Shown: positions 1 to 22,874 of the stretch, piece after piece | How the letters are laid out: each line of letters begins with the position of its first letter | Numbering within the stretch: the first letter of the stretch is position 1 | DNA from: a virus | IMG/VR virus record: IMGVR_UViG_3300022858_000320 | Coordinates: 1 to 31,653 of that record | DNA length: 31,653 bases | Direction: 5' to 3' (one strand) | The notes under the pieces: generated by a model | The model's database searches: none | Told to the model about the DNA's origin: nothing | Seen by the model: the letters and a program-made list of their open reading frames with translations, nothing else | Made by a program: the position numbers and the translations under genes

Positions 1-2240
1 ACCCAGGTCATTGCCCCTGAGGTGTATCCTCCGGTTGCGTCCTGGTATCTGTAGATGCAGGTGGTGTCGATGGGGTCAGCTCCGTTGGTGTCGATCCAGA
101 TGTCACCATAGGCCATCCCTGCTCCAGGTTCGGCGTCCTGGTAGAAGCCAATGATCTTGCCGTCTGCTGTAGATTGTGCCTGCGCTGCATCCGCAAGAGC
201 CTGAAGCGCATCAGCAGAAGATGTCTCCACCCACGCGGCACCCGAGTAGACGTAGGTTTTGAATGAGTCGTCAGTGTCTACCCAGAAGTCACCAACAGAC
301 ATCCCCGCGATAGGTTCGGCGGCTTGGTAGAAGGTCGTGATCTTGCCGTCAGCTGTAGTCTGAGCTGTTGCTGCATTCAGATAGACAAGCCCTACAGCGT
401 TTGTCGGTGAGGCATACCAATCTAGAACGCCTGTGGCTCCACCCGCAGCATCTTCATACCTGTAGATAGCCCCTGACGTCAATGGATCTGCTTCATCGGT
501 ATCGATCCAGATGTCACCGAAAAACATCCCTGCTCCAGGTTCGGCGTCTTGGAAGAAACCAACGATCTCGCCGTCTGCGGCGGCTTGAGCAGCAGCAGCG
601 TCAGCAAGGGCGTCTTGTATCTCATCATAGGAATCCCCGCCAGTCATCTTGATATCTAAGCTGGGGACCGTAGGGTCGAAACGGATGTACGCAGAGTCAG
701 TACCATCGTCCGCACGGAACCGCGCCGCGTTGTCCATATAGGTGATCCAGTCGGTTCCGTTGTGTATCCCAATATACTCAGCAGAGAGGTAAGCGCCTGC
801 AGCCGAAGGGGGATTGGGCATTGACCCGATAGGCCCACCCGGTACAGCTGACAGAAGAATCTTCCCGGCTAAGACCTGAGTGCTGTACACCTTTGAGTAG
901 TACCCTCCAGAGCTAACACCATCGAGATCGTCAGCATAGATTATGTTGCCCATGCTGTCGCCAAAGGTCGGGACCTTGTTCGATACCTGGACCTCGATAT
1001 CCTGAGGCTTGCCGATGACGTCACGCTTCTTGAGAACGGTCACGCGATCGTCGGTCAGGATGTCAAGCTCGTTGTCGCGAACACGTACAAGCTCTCCAAG
1101 CTGGAAAACATGCTCGTTGATCAGAGGGGCAAGGTCGATCGCCTTAGCCTTGTAGGTGTAGGCTGGGTCCTTGAGGACATCTAACCGGGCAACGGCGGCA
1201 TCGTATAAGTTCTGAGCGTCCGTGTACCTTTCGTCTTTCCAAGGGTATGACTTAATCCCGTTCAGCACCTGGCTTGCAGCATCCTCGATGAACTCTGCTC
1301 CTATGTGGCAAACAGACCAGATCCCATAGGTATGCTGTAGGTCGTTGTCCATCGTAAGGACTGACCCGGCCACACTCGCCACGTCATTGATCTCCCAGTC
1401 GCCTGCGGCATTCTCAAGGTAGACGTGGGCACCACCTGCAAAGCCTGCTGCGCTGACCACTTCAACGTCTGCCTGATCCGGCAATGCTTCTACCGCTACT
1501 GTTGTCTCTGCCCCTGTGATGTTGATCGCCATGATGGTGAGCTCATCGACACCGGCACCATTACCGCGAGGGTAGAGCCGGTTGACGATCTTCTGTGCGC
1601 CCCTCGTGCGTTTGATCTCCTGCATGTTCAAGCGGTAGTCAATTACTGCGACAACATCATCACCCGGTTCGACTAGGTTTAGAGTCCAAGGGTAGCTCGT
1701 TGTGTCAAAGGTCCATTGCCACGTCTCATCGTAGAGCCGCCCTGAGATCTGCCAGAGAGCAGCCAAGAGAGAGGTCCCGGGGATCCAGTAGTGAAGGAAG
1801 TTCCGAGCGAAGGAACACGTACCGAGCTGCCAGTGAGCCGTATCCTGCATCGCGAGCAGAGCATTTATCGAAGCCGTAGTCCCTGGCCCTGCGTTCATCT
1901 CAACCGTTAGCTCTTTGTCGAGGAGGGTCGCCAGGGCATGCTCACACTTGTATCTCATGTAGAGCTGTCCGCGTTTCCTTACCGAATCTGCTGAGATAAT
2001 TCGGAAGAGTTCAATCCGTGTGCCTACTACGTCGAACAGCTCCACGTAATGATTGTCCAGACAGTATTGATTCTTGTCGTCACTGTCACCTGTGATTGCC
2101 AGCTCAAAAGACGCCGTCCAGATCTGATTCTCTCGCATCTCGTAAGACACACCATAGACGTTCTCCAGGTACGCAGTGCCGTCCATGTTGAGATCGTAGA
2201 TCTTCGCGTGGCAGATTTGAACAGTAGCATTGGATGTCAT
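1..2240 (-). CDS. Tal-like tail-tip protein (phage minor structural / endopeptidase-tail family), 3' end outside window
   Basis: Open frame starting at ATG 2240 and running off the left edge (about 746 codons visible, no stop). The start overlaps the stop of the preceding gene as TAATG. The first 250 or so residues have the look of the tail-associated (Tal, gp27-like) family that follows Dit in siphoviruses: a beta-rich segment on the values of a position and its derivative, then a segment with EHALATLLDKELTVE and later NRLYPRGNG. The middle (residues about 380-470) continues the hub domain (NEHVFQLGELVRVRD). From about residue 545 the protein becomes a repeat region with ADGxIxGFxQDAEPGAGM and GDxWIDT motifs, probably a fibre-like extension. 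Role inferred: closes the tail tube below Dit and may carry receptor or wall-contacting parts beyond the edge. A lytic domain cannot be confirmed because the C-terminus is missing. Confidence 0.75.
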   Translation of the reverse strand, partial: MTSNATVQICHAKIYDLNMDGTAYLENVYGVSYEMRENQIWTASFELAITGDSDDKNQYCLDNHYVELFDVVGTRIELFRIISADSVRKRGQLYMRYKCEHALATLLDKELTVEMNAGPGTTASINALLAMQDTAHWQLGTCSFARNFLHYWIPGTSLLAALWQISGRLYDETWQWTFDTTSYPWTLNLVEPGDDVVAVIDYRLNMQEIKRTRGAQKIVNRLYPRGNGAGVDELTIMAINITGAETTVAVEALPDQADVEVVSAAGFAGGAHVYLENAAGDWEINDVASVAGSVLTMDNDLQHTYGIWSVCHIGAEFIEDAASQVLNGIKSYPWKDERYTDAQNLYDAAVARLDVLKDPAYTYKAKAIDLAPLINEHVFQLGELVRVRDNELDILTDDRVTVLKKRDVIGKPQDIEVQVSNKVPTFGDSMGNIIYADDLDGVSSGGYYSKVYSTQVLAGKILLSAVPGGPIGSMPNPPSAAGAYLSAEYIGIHNGTDWITYMDNAARFRADDGTDSAYIRFDPTVPSLDIKMTGGDSYDEIQDALADAAAAQAAADGEIVGFFQDAEPGAGMFFGDIWIDTDEADPLTSGAIYRYEDAAGGATGVLDWYASPTNAVGLVYLNAATAQTTADGKITTFYQAAEPIAGMSVGDFWVDTDDSFKTYVYSGAAWVETSSADALQALADAAQAQSTADGKIIGFYQDAEPGAGMAYGDIWIDTNGADPIDTTCIYRYQDATGGYTSGAMTW
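85..600 (-). repeat. Three imperfect repeats in the Tal-like protein
   Basis: Three copies of a module with consensus QxxADGxIxGFxQDAEPGAGM followed by GDIWIDTD lie near 600-480, 365-270 and 180-85. Spacing is about 75 and 62 codons. Copies one and three are most alike; the middle copy is diverged (QAAEPIAGM, GDFWVDTD). This kind of module is common in phage tail proteins. More copies may lie beyond the window edge. Confidence 0.7.
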
Positions 2241-4165
2241 TATGCGTCCCTCTGTGTGTATTCTAGCTTGAGAGTGACATCTCGCGTCCCTTCATCGTCT
2301 TCATAGGAAACCGTGCTGTCTCCAGGAGGGACATTCATGAAGCTCCCCACGATGTCTTTGATTGCATTCACCCCGTCCTTTGTGAAGGTCATTTTGTCAG
2401 AGTCGATCCTGATGACCGATCCCGCACCGAACTCGCCCGAGTAGCCCAGTATAGCGAACATGTAGCGGATGGCTGCTGCTTCCACCGTTGCCGCGACAGT
2501 GATCGCAACAGAGCCCCCGTCGATTATTCTGTACATCGTGGATTCGAGGGACACCGCAACCGCGATTGCGGCTACCGCACAGGTGATGTAATTGCCGGTG
2601 ACTGCAACGTCTATTTCTGGAGCGATCGAAACGATAGCCGTTGCGAGGTGTGCTCCATCTAAGACTAGAGCTACGGCTGGAGTGCAGGCAGCGGATCCAC
2701 TCCAGAAGGCATTAGCAGCTGCGCTTATACTTACACCTGGAGTTATTTGCGTAGATCCCCAAATATAAATTTCCCCGAGGAGAGCTAATCCAAGAGCTAC
2801 CCCTATCGAACAAGCTCCCTCGGATGTCCTGTTACCAATCACTGACAAACCTAGCTCGACTCCGATAGCAGAGGAGGCACTGTTCCAGAGAAGGTTAGCG
2901 ATCGATTCAACGTCTACGCCAGGAGCAATCGCCGCGCCTCCGTTCCAAAGGCTAGTAGCTAATGCGCTTATGCTTAGACCTGGAGTCATTTGCATGGACC
3001 CCCCACTAGCCATTTCCCCAAGAACATCTAAGCCAAGGGCTACCCCTACCGGACAGACACCAACGGCAAGCCTGTTCCCTACCACTGACAGCCCCGTCTC
3101 GATGCCGATAGTAGAAGCCGCACCGCTGCTAATGCCGCTTGCAATCGTTTCAATGTCTGATGTAAGGGCTATCGCACAAACTCCATGAGCGATTCTGTTC
3201 CCGATTGCAGCTTGAGCTACTGCTACTCCTATCGGGCAAACAGCTATACAGATGTAATTCGCAATAGCTTCAACACCTACAGCGGGGGCGATCGGGCAAA
3301 CACCTAGAGCAAGATTGTTGCATTTAGCTTGAACCCCTACAGCGGGGGCAATCACCACTACCCCTGAATGAGTCTGCCCAGTAGTCCAGCTTTGAGCCGC
3401 ACCGTAGCTTGTGCCCTCTGTGTTCGTAGCGTAGGCGCGATAGTAGAGCTTCAAGTGTTCTTCAAACCCAGTCTTCGCTTGGTCGAAAGCGCCCTCTGCG
3501 CCGACTCCTAGTTCTGAATAGCCGTCTGCGCCTGCAATATCTACCGGGTCGGATGCGATTTTCCAACAGAAGCCGTGTTGTGTGATCGACTCGCCCCCGT
3601 CATTTGTGATGTTGCCGTTGAGGGTTGCACCGCCAGGAACGATGATTGTTGCTGCCTGCGTGGTGACTGTTGGGGCTACTGTTATACCAGTAACATAGAG
3701 GCTTAGTGCTGTCGAAGGGTATGAAAGGTATGTCTGTTCCCCTGCCCCAGTTTGGTCGCCGGTTTTGTAGTACGTGCCTGCTCCACCGGCCCCCTCCTCA
3801 TCTGATATTTCAAGTCTCCCGTTGACAGGATCAGCAGTATAAGGATAGTAGATGCCGATGTAGTCCCCAGCCTCTACTTGCAGAGCTATCGGGTTAGACG
3901 AAACATCTGTCGTGATTGTTTGTTTTGAGCCAGCGGTCACAGTTCCAATCGTTACACTGTCTCGCGGAGTGAACTTCGCCCCATCCCTAGATGCGGTAAT
4001 GATCTTGGCCCCAGTGATTGACGGAAGAGATGTGTAAGCCCACATCTCAATCGAGTTGATTATCCCAGATTTGTTAGCTGGATTATCCAGCGTGAATACA
4101 GTGTACCCCGGGGCCCAGGCAAGATTTCGATCAATCGCTGCTGCGCCTACATCAATAACAGACAT
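2240..4165 (-). CDS. Repeat-array tail protein, smaller paralogue, with Dit-like C-terminal module
   Basis: 641 residues. The start ATG 4165 overlaps the previous stop as TAATG. Residues 1-165 form a beta-rich domain of jelly-roll type not shared with the larger paralogue. Residues about 166-268 are an FN3-like domain (PTVTTQAAT, ITQHGFCWK, YRAYATNTEGTSYGAA) nearly identical in plan to the one in the neighbour. Residues about 268-555 are roughly 15 degenerate repeats of about 20 residues, pattern GNxxxxGxCPIxPAVGVExx, with fewer Cys than the neighbour. The last 75 residues (ILGYSGEFGAGSV, IDSDKMTFTKDG, GDSTVSYEDDEGTRDV) match the neighbour's end and resemble the second half of a Dit C-terminal domain. 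Clearly a diverged tandem duplicate of 4165-8076. Position between Dit and Tal argues for a tail-tip or tail-fibre structural role. Function not recognised. Confidence 0.85.
   Translation of the reverse strand: MSVIDVGAAAIDRNLAWAPGYTVFTLDNPANKSGIINSIEMWAYTSLPSITGAKIITASRDGAKFTPRDSVTIGTVTAGSKQTITTDVSSNPIALQVEAGDYIGIYYPYTADPVNGRLEISDEEGAGGAGTYYKTGDQTGAGEQTYLSYPSTALSLYVTGITVAPTVTTQAATIIVPGGATLNGNITNDGGESITQHGFCWKIASDPVDIAGADGYSELGVGAEGAFDQAKTGFEEHLKLYYRAYATNTEGTSYGAAQSWTTGQTHSGVVVIAPAVGVQAKCNNLALGVCPIAPAVGVEAIANYICIAVCPIGVAVAQAAIGNRIAHGVCAIALTSDIETIASGISSGAASTIGIETGLSVVGNRLAVGVCPVGVALGLDVLGEMASGGSMQMTPGLSISALATSLWNGGAAIAPGVDVESIANLLWNSASSAIGVELGLSVIGNRTSEGACSIGVALGLALLGEIYIWGSTQITPGVSISAAANAFWSGSAACTPAVALVLDGAHLATAIVSIAPEIDVAVTGNYITCAVAAIAVAVSLESTMYRIIDGGSVAITVAATVEAAAIRYMFAILGYSGEFGAGSVIRIDSDKMTFTKDGVNAIKDIVGSFMNVPPGDSTVSYEDDEGTRDVTLKLEYTQRDA
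2500..3365 (-). repeat. Degenerate 60-bp coding repeat array (smaller paralogue)
   Basis: About 15 units of 19-21 codons. They are diverged at DNA level, with some 1-codon length differences. Protein pattern alternates hydrophobic strands: xxGxCPIxPAVGVExIANxx. Less homogeneous than the array at 4420-6366, so it is either older or under less recombination. Confidence 0.75.
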
Positions 4166-7100
4166 TACGCATCCCTTGGCGTGTACTTGAGCTTGAGAGT
4201 AACGTCTCGCGTCCCTTCATCGTCCTCGTAGGTAACCGTACTATCTCCACGTTGAACGTCTACGAAATCCCCCACCATATCCTTAAGCATGTTCGCGCCG
4301 TCAACCTTAAAGGTCATCCATTCGGTGTCAATCTCGATGACCGATCCCGCACCGAACTCGCCTGAGTAACCAAGGATCTGGACCATGTAGCGGATAGCTA
4401 CTGCAGCAACCGTCGCGTCGATAGAGATTGAGACAGTGCCCCCGTCCATCACTCGGATGCAGATAGCCTCCTGAGATACCGCTACTGCGATCGCTGCTAC
4501 TGCGCAGGTGATGTAGTTACCGACGACCGCTACGTCAACCTCTGGGGTGATTGCAACGACCGCAGAGGCAAGACGTATCCCCGCTACGACAAGCCCTACC
4601 GCTGGAGTGATTGCCACAACCCCAGAGCGCAGAGAAATTGCAGCCGAGGCAACCGCTGTAGCTACAGAGATGTCGGTATGCCCGTCTCGAATGATCCCCG
4701 CGATTGCTGCCAGGCTAACCGCTGCCGTGATGTCTACCTCTCCAATTGATAGACGACTCCCGATCGCTACTAAGTCAGCACCGGGCCCGATGTCTACCGC
4801 CGCCGATGCAATACGATTCGCTGCACTGACAAGCTCTACCGCAGGCCCGATCGCTGCCGACGCGCTACCCCAAAGGAAATTGGCAATCGATTCGACGTCT
4901 ACTTCAGGAGTGAGAGAGACGACGCCTGACGATTCCAATACCGCTGCGGCTGCTAAAGCCACCTCGGGAGTGATGCCAACGACCCCTCTTCTGATTGCAT
5001 TCGCTACTGCTGCTAGGCTTACCGCTGCGCTGATATCTACTCCAGTACCAGCAATCCTGTTCCCGATCGCTGTTAGATCTGCCGTTACCCCGATGGCTGC
5101 CGCCGCTAGGGTAATGTAGTTTGCTGCGATGGCTAGGTCTACAGCGGGGGTCAACGCTATAGCAGCATCACGGATCACGCCGGCAGTCAATGACAATCCC
5201 ACTGTCGGTGTGATATTGACAGTAGCTAAGGAGAACCTGTCTCCCGTTAAGGCTAACACAAGAGATATCCCTATCGGACAGGCTCCGCTTGCTATCCTGT
5301 TTCCAATTGCTGTTTGACTCATCTCTATTCCAATCGCGGATGCCGCGCTGTTCCACAGGAAGTTGGCAATCACTTCGATACCTAGTGACGGAGTAATAGG
5401 GCACGCGCCTATGGCGATCCTGTTCCCTTCAGCCGTTAGGCTTAGAGCAACTCCGATCGGGCACGCTCCAACGGCAATCCTATTTCCTTCAATCGACAGA
5501 CCGACTGCAGGACCAATCGGACAAGCTCCATCAGCAAGTCTATTTCCTTCGATTGCTATCCCTACTGCAGGATCAATCGGGCACACTCCAAGAGCAACCC
5601 TGTTCCCTTCGATTGCTAGACCCACAGCAGGAGCAATCGGACACGCAGCTATGCAGATGTAGTTCCCTACTACCTCGACACCTACCGCAGGAGCAATTGG
5701 ACACGCTCCAACGGCAATCCTATTTCCTTCAATCGACAGACCGACTGCAGGACCAACCGGACAAGCTCCATCAGCAATCCTATTCCCTTCGATTGCTATC
5801 CCTACAGCAGGATCAATCGGGCACACTCCAAGAGCAATCCTGTTCCCTTCGATCGCTAGACCTACAGTAGGCGTAATCGGGCACGCAGCTATGCAGATGT
5901 AGTTGCCTACTGCCGCGACACCTACCGCAGGAGCAATTAGACACGCGCCCCCCGCAATCCTGTTCCCTTCGATTGCTATCCCTACAGCAGGATCAATCGG
6001 GCACGCTCCAAGAGCAACCCTGTTCCCTTCGATTGCTAGACCCACAGTAGGAGTAATCGGACAAGCAGCTATGCAGATGTAGTTCCCTACTGCCGCGATA
6101 TCCACCGCAGGACCAACTGGGCAGGCAGCTATGCAGATGTAGTTCCCTTTTGCCGCAACACCTACCGCAGGAGAAACAGGGCACGCAGCTATGCAAATGT
6201 AGTTACCTATTGACTCAACTCCTACCGCAGGAGAAACAGGGCACGCAGCTATGCAAATGTAGTTACCTATTGACTCAACTCCTACCGCAGGAGAAACAGG
6301 GCACGCAGCTATGCAGATGTAGTTGCCAACCGACTCGACACCCACCGCAGGGGTGATAGCCACTACCCCTGAATGAGTTTGCCCTGTCGTGAAACTAACC
6401 GCCGCGCCGTAGCTTGTGCCCTCAGAGTTCGTCGCATAGGAGCGCACGTAGAAGGCAGTCGCTTCCGTGAGCCCGGCCTTCGCTTGATCGAATGCGCCCT
6501 CTGTACCTACACCAAGTTCAGAAGAGCCATCAGCCCCAGCGATGTTGACAGGATCAGAGCCAGCCTTCCAGCAGAAGCCATGCTGTGTGATCGACCCGCC
6601 GCCGTCGTCGGTGATGTTGCCGTTGAGCGTGCCGCCGCCTGGGACAAGGGTATCCACTGCCTGTGTGGTGACGGTGGGTGCATCGATTTCCGTGTAATCC
6701 ACCTCGACGTAGACTTGGGTGCAATATGCGTTATCATCATCTGGAAACCCCTTAAGACTTACTCCTATTTGCAGAGCATCTATATCAGCCCAAGCCCAAG
6801 CCTCAGAATCATCGGGGTTCAACGCCCATTCCTCCGAGTGAGTATTCCAAGCAAAAGTTGACTTCTCAGCACCGTCGCTGACAGTAGACCCAGCCTTGAT
6901 AGATGCTTTAGCATAAGAGGCGGAAAGATAACAGCGAAAGAAGACTGTTATCTTATTTATCGTCCCGCTTCCTGATGATGCAGGTAGATTGTATAGGTCT
7001 CTTTGATAACTGCCCGTCACACTTCCTAAATAGGTGGTGAAATCATCAGCGACTGCTTCATCTACCTTATCCCAGTGCGCTGTCGAGGCTGGGGATTGAG

Positions 7101-8076
7101 TGGTGATTGCTGTCTCATCTCCAGCCGCATTCGGCCTAAGCGTCTCGGGCTCCAACTCCGCATACCCAAGCTCGTAGAAATCAATATAAGTACTCGCGAT
7201 CTTACCTTCGACCAGGCGATCGCCATCACATTCGACAATCCATGACATCCAAGAAGCTGAGTTTATATTAAAACCATAAGGGTCGTCAGCCTCACCATTT
7301 TTCCTTATCGCAGCGCGCAGAGCACCTGAGATCGAATTTTGTGAGTAGAAGCCACTTAATGCACCCGAGGGTAACGCAGTTAAGTCTATCCAAGAGCCTG
7401 TACTCCCGAGGGATCGATCAGTAGCGTTGGTGTGCATCGTTACAGCAGAGCCAGCATAATACCCTGATACATAGCAATCGCAGTATGTTGACTCAATTTT
7501 TTGCTCAAATATCTGTGCCGCATCCAAGCCGACAATGTGCCCTCTTGACCCGCTGTATACAATATCCGCTGTGGCGTACCGATCATCAGAAGATCCGTTC
7601 TTTCTAACAAACAATTTAGAGATCCCAGTGGGAGCTCTCAACAAAGACAGAAGGCACATTTTTGCATCAGGGCAATCGGACGAAACATCGGTGTCAACAT
7701 AAAAGTCGGTTGTCGACGTCGAGTAATCCTTCATGTTTGTAAACATAACAACAGGACTCATCAAGGAGCCAAGCATTGTAACATCAGCATCTGCTGCAAC
7801 CTGTAATTTGATCTCGACAATTCCGTTTGCGTCAACGCCCTTGTATACAAGGCAGTGAGAGCCTTTCGCCAGGAGTTGATAGCCCGCAGTATCCGTAGAT
7901 CCGTTGCATCGAATGTCATACAATTTAGAGCTTAATAAGTTGGTGGCTTCAATATGAATCCATGCGCCAACTGCAGATGTTTCAAGTCCGTAACTATCCA
8001 GGTCAACATCAACATAGCTTCCAGACGATCCCGGCGTACAAACTGATGGAGTTGCACGAACAAACGCTGCGGGCAT
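4165..8076 (-). CDS. Giant repeat-array tail protein, 1303 residues, FN3-like domain plus 33 Cys-rich 20-residue repeats
   Basis: ATG 8076 has an AAGGG site 5 nt upstream and follows the preceding stop by 1 nt. Domains in order: residues 1-325, two related beta-rich domains (each with a strand of type IRCNGSTD or IRKNGEADD, ending in a FYELGYAE-type motif); 330-468, a jelly-roll-like domain (LRPNAAGDET to VYVEVDYTE); 470-570, an FN3-like domain; 571-1210, about 33 repeats of 20 residues; 1228-1303, a module resembling the second half of the Dit C-terminal domain (SGEFGAGSVIEID, GDSTVTYEDDEG). Early repeats read GNYICIAACPxxPAVGVExx, with Cys at positions 5 and 9 of the unit; later ones lose the first Cys and then both. 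The regular period predicts a stacked beta structure (solenoid or extended beta prism). Likely a virion tail-tip or fibre protein. The repeat family is not one I recognise. Confidence 0.85.
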   Translation of the reverse strand: MPAAFVRATPSVCTPGSSGSYVDVDLDSYGLETSAVGAWIHIEATNLLSSKLYDIRCNGSTDTAGYQLLAKGSHCLVYKGVDANGIVEIKLQVAADADVTMLGSLMSPVVMFTNMKDYSTSTTDFYVDTDVSSDCPDAKMCLLSLLRAPTGISKLFVRKNGSSDDRYATADIVYSGSRGHIVGLDAAQIFEQKIESTYCDCYVSGYYAGSAVTMHTNATDRSLGSTGSWIDLTALPSGALSGFYSQNSISGALRAAIRKNGEADDPYGFNINSASWMSWIVECDGDRLVEGKIASTYIDFYELGYAELEPETLRPNAAGDETAITTQSPASTAHWDKVDEAVADDFTTYLGSVTGSYQRDLYNLPASSGSGTINKITVFFRCYLSASYAKASIKAGSTVSDGAEKSTFAWNTHSEEWALNPDDSEAWAWADIDALQIGVSLKGFPDDDNAYCTQVYVEVDYTEIDAPTVTTQAVDTLVPGGGTLNGNITDDGGGSITQHGFCWKAGSDPVNIAGADGSSELGVGTEGAFDQAKAGLTEATAFYVRSYATNSEGTSYGAAVSFTTGQTHSGVVAITPAVGVESVGNYICIAACPVSPAVGVESIGNYICIAACPVSPAVGVESIGNYICIAACPVSPAVGVAAKGNYICIAACPVGPAVDIAAVGNYICIAACPITPTVGLAIEGNRVALGACPIDPAVGIAIEGNRIAGGACLIAPAVGVAAVGNYICIAACPITPTVGLAIEGNRIALGVCPIDPAVGIAIEGNRIADGACPVGPAVGLSIEGNRIAVGACPIAPAVGVEVVGNYICIAACPIAPAVGLAIEGNRVALGVCPIDPAVGIAIEGNRLADGACPIGPAVGLSIEGNRIAVGACPIGVALSLTAEGNRIAIGACPITPSLGIEVIANFLWNSAASAIGIEMSQTAIGNRIASGACPIGISLVLALTGDRFSLATVNITPTVGLSLTAGVIRDAAIALTPAVDLAIAANYITLAAAAIGVTADLTAIGNRIAGTGVDISAAVSLAAVANAIRRGVVGITPEVALAAAAVLESSGVVSLTPEVDVESIANFLWGSASAAIGPAVELVSAANRIASAAVDIGPGADLVAIGSRLSIGEVDITAAVSLAAIAGIIRDGHTDISVATAVASAAISLRSGVVAITPAVGLVVAGIRLASAVVAITPEVDVAVVGNYITCAVAAIAVAVSQEAICIRVMDGGTVSISIDATVAAVAIRYMVQILGYSGEFGAGSVIEIDTEWMTFKVDGANMLKDMVGDFVDVQRGDSTVTYEDDEGTRDVTLKLKYTPRDA
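4420..6366 (-). repeat. 60-bp tandem coding repeat array with 240-bp higher-order repeat
   Basis: Exact 60-bp period (20 codons). The units at 6181-6240 and 6241-6300 are identical. Units 5461-5700 and 5701-5940 form a four-unit (240 bp) higher-order repeat with matching order and only scattered substitutions, and 5941-6120 resembles three of its four units. Towards 4420 the units diverge and one gains a codon. The frame is never broken. Confidence 0.9.
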
Positions 8077-8077
8077 T

Positions 8078-8677
8078 CTATCCCTTCACCACTTTCAACA
8101 GCTTTAATCCGAGGACAACTCTTTCTTCGTTAATACTGCTCATCACGCTAATCACATTCTGCTCATGCTCGGCTATGACTTCTTCTTGCGACAACTCAAC
8201 CATCACGCCGTCAGAAACAGCCCAATCCTGGTACTCGTGCTCAGACAGATCCTTAATAGACCTTGCCCTTGGGAATGGGCCAATGTCTATGTCTCCACGC
8301 TTCGCCTGCAATCCTCTTTCGCGTATAGCTGTCAGCCGGTCAAATCGCGGAACGCCGACCATGCTTCCAGCGGCGACCTCTTTTGCTAGAACAAGATCGA
8401 CGCCTTCCAGCTCTGTCCCAGCTTCGTACTTCGCCTTCAACAATCCATAGCGATTCCGAATGAACGTCTCTTCAGTTGCCTTATCGGCATGGAGATGTCC
8501 GCACGATCCCTTGCCCATCAGGCCAGCAGGGTGTGTCAATAGAAGCTCTACGGGATTGCTTTTCTCGATAGCGTTTACAATTTGGGCGTCAATCTCATGC
8601 GCCCTACGTTTCGATTCTCTCGCAGTTAATTGTTCTGGAGTCAGCTCGCTATCCTTTGTCGCTCTGATTACTCGCAT
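8078..8677 (-). CDS. Hypothetical tail-region protein
   Basis: 199 residues. ATG 8677 is preceded by AGGAGG with good spacing. Charged and mostly helical by composition; there is no signal peptide, membrane segment or motif I recognise. One short stretch, MGKGSCGHLHADKATEE, has a CxH pair, but no full metal site is visible. It lies one base from the giant repeat protein, and a weak hairpin separates it from the gene before it. An accessory role in tail-fibre assembly (chaperone) would fit the position and charged helical character, but this is inference only. Confidence 0.7.
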   Translation of the reverse strand: MRVIRATKDSELTPEQLTARESKRRAHEIDAQIVNAIEKSNPVELLLTHPAGLMGKGSCGHLHADKATEETFIRNRYGLLKAKYEAGTELEGVDLVLAKEVAAGSMVGVPRFDRLTAIRERGLQAKRGDIDIGPFPRARSIKDLSEHEYQDWAVSDGVMVELSQEEVIAEHEQNVISVMSSINEERVVLGLKLLKVVKG

Positions 8678-8729
8678 GTCATCCTCCTACGCGTGCTCAT
8701 ATAGGGCATGTCTCTCCCTTAGATAAGGA

Positions 8730-9486: not shown

Positions 9487-10068
9487 TTATGGTACCTCGA
9501 TCATGAAGGTCAAGGTGGGATTTGTAATAGCTGCTATTCCGTTATTCGTCAAGGTAATCTGCACGGGTGTTGAGATAGTCCCAACGTTCGAGAGATCAAC
9601 TACTTCGGGTGATCCCGTGACGTTCTCACTGACTTCCGTTTCTGCTGTCGCATATCCGAAAGGATCGAACGCGACAAGGACCAATCTGAAGTAACCGAGC
9701 GTGTTCCCCGCCTCGCGGGACATCTCCATTTTCCCTGAGTATCTAACCGTGTAGGTCCTATCCGTCTCATCCGCAAAGTAGAAAGCGAGATCGTCAGGAT
9801 CTCCGTTCATATCAACGAGGAACGCAGCCAGCGTTTGCCTGAACTCTGCTACCTCCTCGGGGGTGCTACAGTCAACCGCACAGCAGTCAAACTCGAAGAT
9901 TCGCTCACGTAGCTTTGCACCGTAATCAAACTTGCCGTGCTTCTCCGCTATGCGCTCGGTCACATCCCACGTTCTAGGAAGGATTGACCTCTTGCGTTGC
10001 TTGATTACCTGAAAACCTAGAGCTGCGTTGCTCGATCCTCCGAGATAGAAAGTCGTTGTCGCGTTCAT
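9487..10068 (-). CDS. Distal tail protein (Dit-like), lacking the last half of the C-terminal domain
   Basis: 193 residues. ATG 10068 overlaps the tape measure stop as TAATG. The N-terminal part has the Dit (siphovirus tail component) plan: TFYLGGSSN, RKRSILPRTWDVTERI, a KLRERIFEFDCCAVD strand, EEVAEFRQTLAAFLVD, and YTVRYSGKMEMSRE followed by FRLVLVAFDPFGYATAE. This would form the hexameric hub ring joining tube and tip. The C-terminal part starts a galectin/jelly-roll-like domain (VVDLSNVGTISTPVQITLTNNG, ITNPTLTFMI) and then stops. Dit proteins normally continue with a segment containing an IDT strand and a PGxNxI loop; that segment is absent here but present at the ends of the two repeat proteins downstream. 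The position right after the tape measure supports the call. Confidence 0.8.
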   Translation of the reverse strand: MNATTTFYLGGSSNAALGFQVIKQRKRSILPRTWDVTERIAEKHGKFDYGAKLRERIFEFDCCAVDCSTPEEVAEFRQTLAAFLVDMNGDPDDLAFYFADETDRTYTVRYSGKMEMSREAGNTLGYFRLVLVAFDPFGYATAETEVSENVTGSPEVVDLSNVGTISTPVQITLTNNGIAAITNPTLTFMIEVP

Positions 10069-13000
10069 TAGGTTGCTCCTGCCCAGCCAAGACCACGGCG
10101 GGTTTGTTCAAAGCTATCCTCTATGCCTTCGACCAGCTTATCGATGTCACTGTCGTCTCTGATGGTCGGATTCTCTATGATGATCTGTATGTGGGTATCG
10201 CCCATGCTCGGGGATACACCACCGCCTGAGCCGCTCACACCGCCCATCTGAGGATAAGTAGTGTCACTAAGCTGCACACTTGATCCTCCAGCCAAGCCAG
10301 GGATACCCGTTGCACCAAGAGGCTCACGAGAGAACCCGGATGCTGAGGCGATCGCTCGGCCGATAGCTGAGAGATATCTGGGAGTCAACGGAATGACGCC
10401 TTCAGAGACACCGGCTTCACCGACCACACCATAAGTCGGGGATGTTGCAATCCCACCTTTGGCGAAGCCCGCGATCGCAAGGGTGGCAGCTCCAGCGAAA
10501 GCCGCCAAGGATTGCAGCGTGTAAACTCCCGCAGCCGCCCACGTTAGAGGATTGATCAACGCAACAGCAGCGAGTACCGCGTACTTTGCCCCTTGAAGTG
10601 TTAGTTCATTACGGACAGCAGTCATGAGGTTCCTACCCATCTCTTTCAGGATTTCCCAGATTGTTTGCTTGGAATCCTCATAGGCTTTGTTTTCTGCAGC
10701 GATCGCGTCAAGCCGTACTTGATCGAGGATACCTACGTCTGTGTTGTACTGCTGTTGAATCCTGAGCTTCTCTGCTGCGTACTCATCCCGCGTCATTGTC
10801 CCAGCGGAGAGACTCTTATTGAGGTCAGCGAGATCGGTTAGCCGTTGCTGTGACAGATCAGCGTAAGTAGCCTTGTGATCTGCCGTGATGCCTGAGAGCG
10901 TTTCCGTATGGCTCTTCTTCAGATCTCGATTCGACCTCACCATTGCTGAGACTGAGTTGAGGAAAGAATTCATCGATGAAGCAACCCCGGAAGCCAGCGC
11001 AGCCCATGAGCCGGTCACGCTGTCACGGACCTCGATAGCTGAATCCCTCATCGCTTCTTGCTCTGTTGTCAGATCTCCAGTTACCTCGGCTAGGGATATA
11101 AGCGTTGCCTCTGCTTCAGGAAGGTCTTCCGTGAATCCTCGATAAGCCTCACGAATCTTGCTAGCTACAGACGTGATAGGACCTTCTATGTCTAGGAACG
11201 CTTTTTCAACAGAGGCGAATGAAGTCCTCTGAGCATCTCTCCATTGCTCCAGCGCCTGCTTGAACGCATCGAAAGCGGCGACACCCTCTCCCGCCTTAGC
11301 TATCATCAAGTCAAACAGTGATGTTGCACCGTCAGAGGCAGCTATTTTATCGATCTCTGCTACGGTCAATTTGAGTGCTTCAGGAATATCCTCACCATAA
11401 GCTGCGATCACTTGCCCCGCGAGGTCGTTGAAGACAGCAATCGCTTCTTCGAGCGTTGGTGATTGCAAAGCGATTCGGTACGCATTCTCAAGGTCGTCAG
11501 CAATCGCATTCACTTCACCGCGTGATAGCTTGCCTTGTTTTTCTAGCTCGTTTAGTTGGTCAGTGAGATCCATCAACGCATCTGTCAGTTTGAGAGCCTC
11601 ATCCCATCCAACCTTGAAGACATCTCCAAGAGTTGCCGAGGGGCCAGCTACCGTTGCTTCTTGCTCCTCGCGTAGCAATTTGGTTTGTTCTCTGAGTTCA
11701 GCTAGTGCTAGGGCTGCTCCCTCACTCGCTTCGGCATAGTCAGTTGTCATCTGTTCTATCTCTGCCATTGCTTTTCTGTGTGCCTCAGCAGCAGCCTTTG
11801 CTTGCTCGTGCTTGAGAATGAGAGCGGAGATCCCAACAACGAGCAAAGCGATCGCGGCTGCAACTGGATTCGTGATCGCGTAGATGGCGATCAGTCCCAG
11901 AGCGACTACAGCAAGGACCTTCTTGATGGCGGATCGGTTGGTAATGAGCCACTGAAGCCCATCGAGTAATCCCTTGAACATCTTGATAAGCCCCGTCTCG
12001 ATCCTAGCTTGATTCGCTTCCAACCATCCAAGAAATTGAGAGAGCCCACCCTGCAACTCTTCACCGATGTTGATCTGTACCGTTTGCCACCACGCTGCGA
12101 GTTGGTCAAGCCGGAACTGGATCCCGGCAGTCATCTCCGCGAAAGCAATCTCAGTTGCTTCTGCCGTCTCGGACATCTCCCCGAGCTTTACCCGGAAGGA
12201 ATCGAGGTTCGATCCTCCGAGGTTGAGTGCTGCCATTCCACCTTCGACGGACGAGAACATGTCCATCAGGGATATGCTGTTTGCGTCAGTATATTCCTGC
12301 AGCAGTTCAAGAACGTCTGAGAGATCGTTCCCTTCGTCCATGAAGTCTTGGAACGTCTGTCCGGACAGCTCCTCGAAGATCTCGGCAAGCTCGCCACCTG
12401 ACCTCGACAGCTCGACAAGCATCTGTCTGAGCTGCGTTGCTGCGACACGAGTAGGCACACCCTTCGCTGTGATCTCGGCCATAGCCGCCGCTACTTGCTG
12501 GAAGCTCACGCCTGTTGCCGCTGCGACCGGCGTCACCTGGAAGAGGTATCTTGAGAGTTGCGCAAAGGTCGTCTTACCCAGCCGTACCGCCGTGAACATA
12601 ATGTCAGATGCTTCAGTCGCAGAGAGGACCTCGGCACCGTAGGCATTGACCACGGACGACAGAGCATCGACTGAAGTCTCAAGGTCGGTTACTCCAGCCT
12701 TCGCCGCCTTCCCCGCAATCTCCATGAAGTCAAAGACGTTATCCGGAGGTACACCGGCTGAGATGGCTTGATAGAGTGCTGGTATGGTTTCATTCGGGAG
12801 CACACCGATTGCCCGAGAGATCTCCTTGACATCGGCGGTCATCTGCTCTTTGGCTTTCTCGGACAGCCCAGGCATGAGAGTGAAGACTTCCCTCATACCC
12901 GTATCCATCTTGGCAAAGTTCTTGAGTGACGTTGCTCCGAGAGCCGCAACCGCGCCTGCTGCTACCACAGCCCCGCGCTTGATCCACTTCCCTACGTTAT

Positions 13001-13130
13001 CTCCAAGCTTCTGGAAATTGGCACCCATGCTAACGGATGTCTTTTTCCCTGCTGTCTCAATAGCTCGGATGTCATTGACTGCCTGACTTTTGTTCACCGA
13101 GACTTTTGCGAATAGCTCGAAGACGTTCAC
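10068..13130 (-). CDS. Tail tape measure protein (TP901-type)
   Basis: 1020 residues. GTG 13130 has GGAGG 6 nt upstream and overlaps the end of the GT chaperone frame by 59 bp. N-terminal residues 1-70 are basic with a short hydrophobic stretch. The TP901 core lies at about 75-400 (LKNFAKMDTGMREVFTL, AGKAAKAGVTDLETSVDALSSVVNAYG, TPVAAATGVSFQQVAAAMAEITAKG). A strongly hydrophobic segment at about 400-440 (VLAVVALGLIAIYAI and following) is typical of the part that may enter the host membrane. Then come coiled coils (440-520, 740-850), a second hydrophobic patch at 860-910 and a Gly/Ser-rich end. At the usual 0.15 nm per residue it predicts a tail of about 150 nm. No peptidase or muramidase motif was seen. 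Confidence 0.95.
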   Translation of the reverse strand: MNVFELFAKVSVNKSQAVNDIRAIETAGKKTSVSMGANFQKLGDNVGKWIKRGAVVAAGAVAALGATSLKNFAKMDTGMREVFTLMPGLSEKAKEQMTADVKEISRAIGVLPNETIPALYQAISAGVPPDNVFDFMEIAGKAAKAGVTDLETSVDALSSVVNAYGAEVLSATEASDIMFTAVRLGKTTFAQLSRYLFQVTPVAAATGVSFQQVAAAMAEITAKGVPTRVAATQLRQMLVELSRSGGELAEIFEELSGQTFQDFMDEGNDLSDVLELLQEYTDANSISLMDMFSSVEGGMAALNLGGSNLDSFRVKLGEMSETAEATEIAFAEMTAGIQFRLDQLAAWWQTVQINIGEELQGGLSQFLGWLEANQARIETGLIKMFKGLLDGLQWLITNRSAIKKVLAVVALGLIAIYAITNPVAAAIALLVVGISALILKHEQAKAAAEAHRKAMAEIEQMTTDYAEASEGAALALAELREQTKLLREEQEATVAGPSATLGDVFKVGWDEALKLTDALMDLTDQLNELEKQGKLSRGEVNAIADDLENAYRIALQSPTLEEAIAVFNDLAGQVIAAYGEDIPEALKLTVAEIDKIAASDGATSLFDLMIAKAGEGVAAFDAFKQALEQWRDAQRTSFASVEKAFLDIEGPITSVASKIREAYRGFTEDLPEAEATLISLAEVTGDLTTEQEAMRDSAIEVRDSVTGSWAALASGVASSMNSFLNSVSAMVRSNRDLKKSHTETLSGITADHKATYADLSQQRLTDLADLNKSLSAGTMTRDEYAAEKLRIQQQYNTDVGILDQVRLDAIAAENKAYEDSKQTIWEILKEMGRNLMTAVRNELTLQGAKYAVLAAVALINPLTWAAAGVYTLQSLAAFAGAATLAIAGFAKGGIATSPTYGVVGEAGVSEGVIPLTPRYLSAIGRAIASASGFSREPLGATGIPGLAGGSSVQLSDTTYPQMGGVSGSGGGVSPSMGDTHIQIIIENPTIRDDSDIDKLVEGIEDSFEQTRRGLGWAGAT

Positions 13131-20004: not shown

Positions 20005-20799
20005 CTATGTCTTATTGAGTATCGAGCGTAGCTCTGCAGTCACCTTCGAGTGCGTTTGCGGATCGAAGATGCGTCTTAATTGCGAGTCTCCTAGCAGAGT
20101 GGACGGGTCCGGGTCTGCGTCGAAGAGTGCAGTGAACGTGTTGAGCCTTTTGATTAAGTTGCGTACTTGTTCTGAGCTTTTGATGACGAGGATCCCGAGG
20201 TCGTTGGCCTCTTCCTGTTCTCCATCGAGCGCCGATCGCGTTGTTTCAATCATCTTCCTGATATCTGAAGCAGAGCCACCACGAAGCGCCATCTGAAGAA
20301 CGCCGATCTGTGACCGGACATCATCGATGTTCGCCTCGGGATTGGCTGCGAAGTTCCGCATCAGGATAGCTACCTCGTAAGACTTGATTTCGGTATAGTG
20401 CCAGATCCCATCAGAGTCTTTCTTCTGTTGGATGACGTCGAAGCCGTGCGACATCTGGGAGTAATACCCCGCCGCTAGATTCTCTCCAGAAGGATCGGGC
20501 AACCCTGCATAAACCTCGGCTGCGTCCTTCGAGTACTCAATGTTCAGAGATCCATGAACAAGCAAACCAGTATTGTCTTCCGCGCACCGTGCGAGCCCGA
20601 TACCCATCCACGGCATGTGGAAGAACGTGATGGGGAGCTCACCTTTCTGAGCCTTGAGCGTCCTCTTGAATGCGCCTTCGTCGATGATCGTATTGTACGA
20701 ATCCTTATTCCCGAAGACGGAAGCATGACCAGTGAAGTCTCCTTCTCTGCCTTCGGCTCTTAACTCGCGAACCTCTAGAGGCACTGCGAGATACTTCAT
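20005..20799 (-). CDS. Prohead maturation protease (HK97/S78 family)
   Basis: 264 residues. ATG 20799 overlaps the portal stop as ATGA and has GGAGGTG upstream. Residues 20-45 GDFTGHASVFGNKDSYNTIIDEGAF are typical. The probable catalytic His is H61 (TFFHMPW) and the probable catalytic Ser is S117 (YSQMSHGF), followed by the strand with YTEIKSYEVAILMRNFAANPEA. About 100 C-terminal residues after the protease domain are helical and charged and may act as scaffold or self-cleaved tail. The enzyme trims the capsid protein delta domain inside the prohead. A normal neighbour of portal and capsid. Confidence 0.9.
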   Translation of the reverse strand: MKYLAVPLEVRELRAEGREGDFTGHASVFGNKDSYNTIIDEGAFKRTLKAQKGELPITFFHMPWMGIGLARCAEDNTGLLVHGSLNIEYSKDAAEVYAGLPDPSGENLAAGYYSQMSHGFDVIQQKKDSDGIWHYTEIKSYEVAILMRNFAANPEANIDDVRSQIGVLQMALRGGSASDIRKMIETTRSALDGEQEEANDLGILVIKSSEQVRNLIKRLNTFTALFDADPDPSTLLGDSQLRRIFDPQTHSKVTAELRSILNKT

Positions 20800-22874
20800 A
20801 AGCCACCTCCGTTAAGTTGTTCTGCATCAGGCCCCGTTTCGTAGAGTTCCTGACAGTTACAATTCACCGTCTCTTCTGCCGAACCGCTGGGATCGCCCGG
20901 ATACATGAGCCCGTTCGGGTACGTTGCATTAATTGCGTAGATCGTCCCATCATCTAGTGCCGCGTGTGAGTCGCGCATATCTCCTGACCGCGCAGAGATC
21001 CATCGCTTACCCGTCACTACACCTGTTTGAATCGCGGCCTCATGAGAAGCGAATCCACTTGCTCCATGAATCTCTGTCCTTGCGATCGTCATCGAGCGGC
21101 TCTTGTCGAATGGGAGCTCAGGATCCTTTCCACCGAATCTCTCGTAGAGCCCTTGGAGTTGACGCGCTGTATCTACCGCGCTTGCACCTTCGAGAGCTGC
21201 CTTGTCCACTACACGCTTCACTCGAGAGATCGTCTTTGCTTGGATCTTGTCAACCTGTTCCGCTACCTGGCCTTCGACAAAGGAAGTGATCGCGCCGGTA
21301 TAGGCGTCGAATCTAAGACTAGCTCTCTCGGTATTTCCGAGGATCTCTGCTTCTACGTCTTTCCCTATCCGATCGATGGTTACTCGCCAGGAAGCTGTGA
21401 GAACGATTCTCCATGCCTCTGCTTCACCACGGATAAGCGCCTCGTAGTTGGTGTTGCCTGCCTTCCAGTGGTTTTCTATCAGCTTCCCTTCTTCGAGGAA
21501 GCGTTTGGATACGTTCTTGCCCATCGCTCCTGCGTAGGCTTGCTGCACACGATCGCGCAGAATCCACCGGGCGTCGATTGAGCTTTCGTCGGCGTTGATA
21601 GCTCTGCTCTGGATTGACCTGCCTTGAGATGTGTTATTCAAAGGCAGCATTCCCGCTTGCATGAATCCGGTATCAGGGCATGCCCATGACGGCAACCCAA
21701 GGTCAAGGGCGACGTTGATCGCCCGAATGTTGATTCCCATTTCCAGATAATACTTTGCGATTCGAGCATTCTGCCGACGCATCTCTACCACTGGGGGGGA
21801 TTGAGAAAGGTCGTGTACGAAAACAACGTCATCGCCAAAGAGAGGAGCGAGCTGTAGGTTGATAGCCGCAAGCGCCGACTTAGCATTTGGGAGCGTCTCA
21901 TTAGTCCACAAGAACACTTCGGCCATCTGCTGGTTTTCAAAGGTAGCATCAGCCACTCCGAGCAGAACAGGGTGAACGCCAAGCCCAAGGGCAAGCTTTC
22001 TATCTGTCAGCTTGATCGATTCAGTGAAGTCCATCTCTGCAGGTGTGCCCATGAGCGACTGGAAGTAGACACGGGTGCGCGCCAGTAGCATCTTTCTGAA
22101 GTTCTTCGGCCCTCTCTTCGTCTTCACAATCTGAGTCTTGATTTCCTCAGATTGCTTCGGTGAGAGATCGCCCGAGATGATCCCCGAAGGTAAGACAGCA
22201 TTATCGAATGAGAACTTCTGTGCATCCTGAATCGAGTCAGCTACATCTGCTCTCCTCTGCGTTGGCTGTAGTGTGGCTATCCCCGTGTGTTCGTTGATGG
22301 GATCGTACTGGACGATATGGACAATCTCCTCAGATTTATATACTTGCGCATCCATACCGAAGCCAGGTTTGTAGACGTACTCAAGCTCAGTCTCATTGAC
22401 AGGCCGAGGTCTTACAAGATCGGGACGAAGCGGCCAGATTTCAATCAGCCCGGCTTTCGCGTTGACGTTGTTGATCTTCCAGATGATTGCGCCTTTGAGG
22501 TCACGAGCGAATGACAGCCGGTACATGATGTCTCGCCAGCTTAGGCGGGGGTTCGGCTTTCGAGCGAACTTCACAGCACCATGCGTTGCAGGCAAATCTG
22601 TGAGTGTCCCATCAGGGAGAAGTCTTTTCGCTTGAATGGGGATTGAGGATTCTGCGTTCGCCCGGATTCGCAGACAGCGAGCAATGAGTTCGTTCTTTCT
22701 GAAATACTTGCGGACTGCTTTCTCATAGTCCCAGTCCGACCAGAGCGATTGACCGATAGCAGTCTGACCCCAGAACGGAGGGACATCACCAGTCAGCCTT
22801 TTCGCTATTGCAGTCCAGATAGTGTCTCGAAGCCCACTGCGTACACTGTCTCCCAGGAAGTCTCTAAAGCCCAT
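20796..22874 (-). CDS. Portal protein fused to MuF-type minor head protein
   Basis: 692 residues, ATG 22874, preceded by AGGGAGA. Residues about 25-420 are an HK97-type portal: KYFRKNELIARCLRIRANAESSIPI, KPNPRLSWRDIMYRLSFARDLKGAIIWKI, EEIVHIVQYDP, and LALGLGVHPVLLGVADATFENQQMAEVFLW. Residues about 440-590 are helical. Residues about 595-680 match the Mu F-like head morphogenesis domain: MTIARTEIHGASGFASHEA, RWISARSGDMRDSHAALDDG, VNCNCQELYETG. Portal and MuF are separate genes in most phages; here one frame covers both. The dodecameric portal is the DNA entry ring and the MuF part is usually injected or internal. It has its own promoter upstream. Confidence 0.93.
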   Translation of the reverse strand: MGFRDFLGDSVRSGLRDTIWTAIAKRLTGDVPPFWGQTAIGQSLWSDWDYEKAVRKYFRKNELIARCLRIRANAESSIPIQAKRLLPDGTLTDLPATHGAVKFARKPNPRLSWRDIMYRLSFARDLKGAIIWKINNVNAKAGLIEIWPLRPDLVRPRPVNETELEYVYKPGFGMDAQVYKSEEIVHIVQYDPINEHTGIATLQPTQRRADVADSIQDAQKFSFDNAVLPSGIISGDLSPKQSEEIKTQIVKTKRGPKNFRKMLLARTRVYFQSLMGTPAEMDFTESIKLTDRKLALGLGVHPVLLGVADATFENQQMAEVFLWTNETLPNAKSALAAINLQLAPLFGDDVVFVHDLSQSPPVVEMRRQNARIAKYYLEMGINIRAINVALDLGLPSWACPDTGFMQAGMLPLNNTSQGRSIQSRAINADESSIDARWILRDRVQQAYAGAMGKNVSKRFLEEGKLIENHWKAGNTNYEALIRGEAEAWRIVLTASWRVTIDRIGKDVEAEILGNTERASLRFDAYTGAITSFVEGQVAEQVDKIQAKTISRVKRVVDKAALEGASAVDTARQLQGLYERFGGKDPELPFDKSRSMTIARTEIHGASGFASHEAAIQTGVVTGKRWISARSGDMRDSHAALDDGTIYAINATYPNGLMYPGDPSGSAEETVNCNCQELYETGPDAEQLNGGGL

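Follow-up and report, generated by a model that had tools for sequence, protein, structure and literature searches.

A Dit C-terminal domain divided between genes, with its second half on size-variable repeat proteins

The distal tail protein (Dit) encoded in a 31,653-nt stretch of viral DNA (the window) stops in the middle of its C-terminal domain, and the rest of that domain is found at the C-termini of two large repeat proteins, A and B, encoded by other genes of the same locus. The Dit product and the C-terminal segments of A and B (the C-halves) map to complementary, abutting, and essentially non-overlapping parts of one domain. We judge it fairly probable that A and B serve as arms for adhesion at the tail tip of a siphovirus and are held there by this divided Dit domain. 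The main interest of the locus is the spread of a Dit domain over two genes with size-variable repeat arms, rather than the ladder of cysteine residues in the repeats that an initial annotation had emphasized.

Organization of the tail locus

A and B are encoded between the tape measure/Dit genes on one side and the Prophage_tail (Tal) gene on the other; A begins 1.4 kb and B 5.3 kb downstream of Dit. The initial annotation had placed the pair at the tail tip, and this placement is borne out by the gene neighbourhood together with the match of the C-terminal modules to Dit. It had also described two adjacent open reading frames sharing an FN3-like domain, repeats of close to 20 residues (33 and about 15), and a C-terminal module, all of which are present; the FN3-like stretch measures ~100 aa, and the repeats, of exactly 20 residues, number 33 in A and 15 in B. 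The C-terminal modules are identical at 52 of 71 residues; what had gone unrecognized is that they correspond to one half of the C-terminal domain of Dit. The features of the locus are the following.

3-2240, (-): Tal / prophage endopeptidase tail protein (PF06605, E 7e-23); runs off the window
2240-4165, (-): protein B, 641 aa; N-terminal domain, FN3-like domain, 15 repeats, Dit C-half
2243-2455, (-): Dit C-half of B, residues 571-641 (PF22768 35-96; phrog_33 217-272; phrog_202 458-518)
2465-3364, (-): 15 x 20-residue repeats of B, residues 268-567 (sequence comparison, lag-20 identity)
3380-3676, (-): FN3-like domain of B, residues 164-262 (BLASTP of A against B; FN3-like by appearance only)
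4165-8076, (-): protein A, 1303 aa; N-terminal domains, FN3-like domain, 33 repeats, Dit C-half
4168-4380, (-): Dit C-half of A, residues 1233-1303 (PF22768 34/36-96; model superposes on NF5 Gp15)
4390-6369, (-): 33 x 20-residue repeats of A, residues 570-1229 (autocorrelation, per-position counts, codon analysis)
6382-6681, (-): FN3-like domain of A, residues 466-565 (BLASTP with B; invariant blocks in relatives L007 and L008; FN3-like by appearance only)
9487-10068, (-): Dit gene, 193 aa; complete N-terminal ring/belt domain and first half of the C-terminal galectin-type domain
9490-9651, (-): Dit tail, residues 140-193, the N-half of the C-terminal domain (alignment with the unsplit CBP1 Dit); ends at the split
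10068-13130, (-): tape measure protein (PF10145, phrog_991)

Elsewhere in the window, a 692-aa open reading frame (20796-22874, (-)) matches Phage_portal at 65-358 and, below the Pfam cut-off, Phage Mu F-like at 552-675; here a portal protein is seemingly fused to a Mu F-like protein.

Dit and the C-halves cover complementary parts of one domain

The window Dit matches TIGR01633 (distal tail protein Dit) above cut-off, along with phrog_33 (72-208) and phrog_202 (34-188). Its match to the belt domain PF05709 (18-125, E 2.4e-4) falls just under the Pfam cut-off, while the Dits of relatives L008 and L011 match the same profile above it. PF22768 describes the C-terminal domain of SPP1-type Dit and has a length of 97. 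The complete domain is absent from the window Dit open reading frame, which ends mid-domain, and the part from 35 to 97 is found only in A and B, whose C-termini give weak Pfam matches restricted to positions 35-96 of 97. The end of the window Dit aligns with the first strands of the C-terminal domain of the unsplit CBP1 Dit. The two halves also partition the phage orthologous profiles. On phrog_33, Dits cover positions 33/72 to 206/218 and C-halves 213/217 to 268/279; the corresponding stretches of phrog_202 are 18/34 to 188/197 for Dits and 458-523 for C-halves, with a long insertion in between.

Chimeras in which the Dit tail and C-half were joined in silico gave a single PF22768 match running from 1/2 to 92/97 in seven of eight cases (A, B, L008, L045, L060, L095, and L032); the tail of the window Dit, once joined, takes up profile positions 2-35. 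Where both were scored, the joined chimeras exceeded the C-half alone by 3.6-17.4 bits, the gain being only a few bits for A and B; for the L011 chimera the match was not extended (17.0 bits). In control comparisons with PF22768, a reversed tail added nothing, and the tested Dit tails alone had no match. A programmed fusion of Dit and C-half is ruled out, as other genes lie between them. In the open-access papers searched, we found no precedent for a split or incomplete Dit domain or for 20-residue tail repeats.

The two halves were also placed on solved structures. Along SPP1 Dit (2x8k), residues 42-163 are matched by the Dit profile and 177-218, weakly (E 0.056), by the C-half profile; on Gp15 of phage NF5 (9m8o), the Dit profile covers 58-158. 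In the AF2 model of A, residues 1230-1299 have pLDDT values of 71-92 in ten-residue blocks, and this C-half model superposes on NF5 Gp15 residues 185-254 with a Z of 5.5 and an rmsd of 2.1 Å over 66 residues. The model of the C-half is confident, yet its last strands are left without a predicted sheet partner. Foldseek alone gave no significant match.

The Dit tail and the C-half covary

Distance correlations were computed over 43 viruses. The Dit tail correlated with the C-half of the other gene at r 0.90, versus 0.59 with its own belt, while the belt correlated with the tape measure protein at 0.89. Given the belt, the tape measure protein, and the gene at the Tal position, the partial r between Dit tail and C-half was 0.80 across the 43 viruses and 0.46 within the 33 closest; for belt and C-half the value was about 0. 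Joint recombination of the two segments can be an alternative source of such correlations. The mean distance of the Dit tail was 0.53, versus 0.61 for the belt; the tail is thus the better conserved of the two and is not a relic.

Split Dits in related viruses and prophages

A first genome-contig scan using B as query gave no match. Relatives were found by a scan with short Dits followed by a scan with the C-half, which produced 57 distinct Dit/C-half pairs in related viruses and prophages (33 Dit clusters and 39 C-half clusters at 90%). All Dits of the 57 pairs end 2-6 aa past the same profile column. The partner of each short Dit is a separate downstream gene that encodes 20-residue repeats and a Dit C-half, with 314-6847 bases between the Dit and C-half open reading frames. 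The C-half is always C-terminal in these separate proteins, mostly with about 100-150 residues ahead of it, and the pooled lag-20 identity of 39 of them is 0.219, against a shuffle maximum of 0.088. Ordinary Dits have both halves of the C-terminal domain in a single open reading frame; three Dits of the first set likewise combine the halves in one frame, with no separate C-half.

In relatives L007 and L008, FN3-like domains are again combined with Cys-poor 20-residue repeats and with the C-terminus seen in A and B. Two repeat/C-half proteins (1451 and 569 aa) accompany a short Dit (203 aa) in L008, which, like the window with A and B, has two of these proteins in one virus. L133 is a further instance in a virus or prophage, with neighbouring open reading frames of 76 and 266 aa that each carry a C-half beside one short Dit.

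Named hosts among the split-Dit relatives are Paenibacillus ehimensis and Paenibacillus sp. P96. Among 151 genomes from the order to which P. ehimensis belongs, surveyed with the public profile PF22768, full matches were mostly in open reading frames of 272-318 aa, and matches to the C-half only (from about position 24-36) in frames of 177-207 aa. In L113 and L120 from this survey, and in L132 and L133 from a phylum survey, Dit is short again where the short flanks reach it. The surveyed unsplit Dits carry both halves, some with long insertions (436-560 aa).

Different repeat parts precede nearly identical C-halves in L077, L079, L081, and L092, which suggests recombination just upstream of the C-half. 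The split-Dit virus L011 encodes a secreted PKD-like protein (7119-8723); this protein and the style of the contig give the impression, though only that, of an archaeal, methanogen-like host.

Repeats and cysteine ladder of A and B

At lag 20, residue identity reaches 0.465 in A (shuffle maximum 0.149) and 0.225 in B (shuffle maximum 0.164), and TRF detects 60-base units in the repeat region of A. The domain called FN3-like in the initial annotation is indeed common to A and B, but the label itself finds no backing in the Pfam fn3 profile, which has no match in either protein at E up to 1.

Per-position counts reproduce the described placement of Cys along the repeats of A. In our register, Cys3 is present in 16 of 16 repeats from 2 to 17 and Cys19 in seven (repeats 1-5, 8, and 12), with almost no Cys in repeats 18-33; in B, most Cys fall within the first few repeats. 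Cys3 of A repeats 2-17 is invariant across two codons (10 TGC and 6 TGT), and the pN/pS of the Cys-bearing repeats is about 0.35-0.5. As the codons vary while the residue is constant, at this pN/pS, the repeat array of A is under selection, and Cys3 may be significant for A as a single protein. A role of the ladder as functional core is not supported for the family, since relatives that share these repeats and the C-terminal module are nearly free of Cys; the ladder is real in A but is not a defining feature of the architecture.

The sequence supports a beta-rich 20-residue repeat, as had been predicted. In the AF2 model of A, the repeat region has pLDDT 36-45, too low to assign a fold such as a beta-solenoid or triple beta-spiral fibre, and a regular solenoid is neither supported nor opposed; strands recur twice per 20 residues in this low-confidence model. 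A first AF2 model, of full-length B from five sequences, had a mean pLDDT of 33.6, with the repeats below 36. Structure matches of the repeats to left-handed beta-helix acyltransferases were set aside, having an rmsd of about 11 Å on a stretch of pLDDT under 45, and a PDB sequence search with A gave no match.

The repeat had been said to belong to no named family, which is correct for Pfam and NCBIfam but not for the phage orthologous groups, as short relatives fall in phrog_31951. An HMM built from the repeats of A and B did not score distant repeats clearly above composition shuffles. A phase-aware profile test gave a clear signal for only two sets, the late repeats of A itself and L007 (p <= 0.0005); the signal was weaker for the mycobacteriophage tail proteins of Fruitloop (0.004) and Aminay (0.0135), mixed for L008, and 0.043 for short Firmicutes-type proteins. 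The period of 20 common to all these repeats is firm, while a single ancestry for all of them is not proven by these comparisons.

Other segments vary in position between relatives. The module 'ETLRPNAAGDETAI...YCTQVYVEVDYTE' (A residues 311-465) precedes the FN3-like domain in A and stands between two repeat blocks in the 1451-aa protein of L008 (4545-8900 (+)), a difference that reflects domain shuffling among these proteins. In L008 (9882-11591) and L007 (1-110), repeats of the type 'KIYQHSGETSTITTSFSSPST', with a beta-propeller-like look, take the place of the A-type N-terminus, so the distal part has been exchanged between relatives.

Alternative explanations

The C-half might instead be completed in cis by strands of the last repeat. 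A and B would then each end in a full galectin-type domain and make some other tail-tip contact, and the Dit tail would have its own partner or cap the belt. Completion in cis is possible because native profile matches in L007, L032, and L060 run back into the last repeat: the native L007 protein matches PF22768 at 10-97 with 35.9 bits, last repeat included, and the phrog_33 matches of L060 and L032 begin inside the repeats. In A, however, the native context adds nothing to the PF22768 match (27.0 vs 27.8 bits), and the last strands of the confident C-half model have no predicted sheet partner. As the missing first part, the Dit tail is the better fit; it is also conserved and covaries with the C-half. 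We regard completion in cis as unlikely, though deserving of consideration.

On the initial reading, the repeats would make a regular solenoid with stacked Cys that hold metal or oxidise to disulphides, and this would be the point of the protein. Such a view would be in keeping with the invariance of Cys3 over two codons in A repeats 2-17, the pN/pS of these repeats, and the recurrence of two strands per 20 residues in the low-confidence model. We hold it to be quite improbable given the few or absent Cys in the repeats of L007, L008, Aminay gp26, and L011 and in the phrog_31951-type relatives examined, and the restriction of Cys in B mainly to the first few repeats. Unrelated gene decay, in which a truncated Dit domain coexists with a stray C-half copy surviving in other tail proteins, would fit the several nearly identical C-halves behind different repeats, and phage genes are often mosaic. 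That 57 distinct pairs share one end point, with both halves conserved and covarying, argues strongly against decay and leaves it very little probability.

Proposed assembly of the tail tip

An established property of SPP1-type Dits is the hexameric ring that they build beneath the tail tube. In the window, the peripheral C-terminal domain is interrupted at a loop following its first strands, where the Dit gene ends, and the remaining strands make up the C-termini of A and B. As the tail assembles, A or B would dock its C-half in the Dit half-domain by strand complementation; we infer this docking in trans from the complementary mapping, co-occurrence, and covariation of the two half-domains. 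If the C-half fits the Dit half-domain in this way, up to six copies, in a mixture of A and B, could surround the ring. The repeats, lying N-terminal to the C-half, would serve as a beta-rich spacer with a length set by how many units are present. Contact with the host would fall to the FN3-like and N-terminal domains at the distal end, judging from their position and the anatomy of the proteins. On balance, we lean towards a peripheral domain of the tail hub made from two polypeptides, with Dit as an open half-sandwich socket and the repeat arms as exchangeable plugs, A and B together filling six sockets and allowing modular mixing of arms.

If the halves assemble in trans, a core tail-tip protein of siphophages has been turned into a docking socket. 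This would give a function to phrog_31951, so far of unknown function, and would account for the short look of the Dit genes in these phages. It would also provide a plug-and-socket way to swap or lengthen adhesion arms with the ring gene untouched.

Relation to known systems

The window Dit resembles SPP1 Dit (gp19.1, 2x8k) and NF5 Gp15 (9m8o) in having a belt followed by the first half of the C-terminal domain, the second half being recognizable in A and B. Unlike the single polypeptides of SPP1 and NF5, the window has separate genes, with the second half present in two copies on large repeat proteins. In known Dits, galectin-type domains stand at the rim of the hexameric ring, and in the 'evolved' Dits of lactic phages binding modules are placed within or ahead of these domains (PMC7291167, PMC8540738). 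Paenibacillus phage C7Cdelta has an unsplit Dit (485 aa, phrog_202) with an insertion of ~230 aa at the loop that marks the split in the window lineage. In evolved Dits and C7Cdelta, extra modules stand in a loop of, or immediately ahead of, the peripheral galectin domain, and the repeats of the window precede the C-half at the same place; in contrast to those continuous chains, the chain is broken in the window and the decoration comes from another gene. The arrangement of A and B is best explained as an evolved Dit assembled in trans. On the simplest reading, the decoration of a continuous evolved Dit would have been relocated in this lineage to a gene of its own, with the half-domains joining on assembly.

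A and B share 20-residue repeats and the same C-half with phrog_31951 (173 aa). A matches this profile at 29-169 of 173 (E 2e-8), the L008 proteins match at 15-171, and the short relatives match end to end with E down to 9e-98; A and B differ in having many more repeats as well as FN3-like and N-terminal domains. Similar [VIL]-T-P-x-[VIL]-G-[hydrophobic] units are found in phrog_2106 and in the mycobacteriophage minor tail proteins Aminay gp26 (L016) and Fruitloop gp20 (L021). The repeats of Aminay gp26 have an exact period of 20 residues, as in A and B, although homology of the repeats is not proven. Unlike A and B, the Aminay and Fruitloop proteins lack a Dit C-half, and Aminay gp26 ends in a Gly_rich_2 domain and has no Cys in its repeats. 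V-T-P-x-x-G units occur in both Aminay gp26 and Fruitloop gp20, and tblastn with the Aminay repeats matches 330 phage records.
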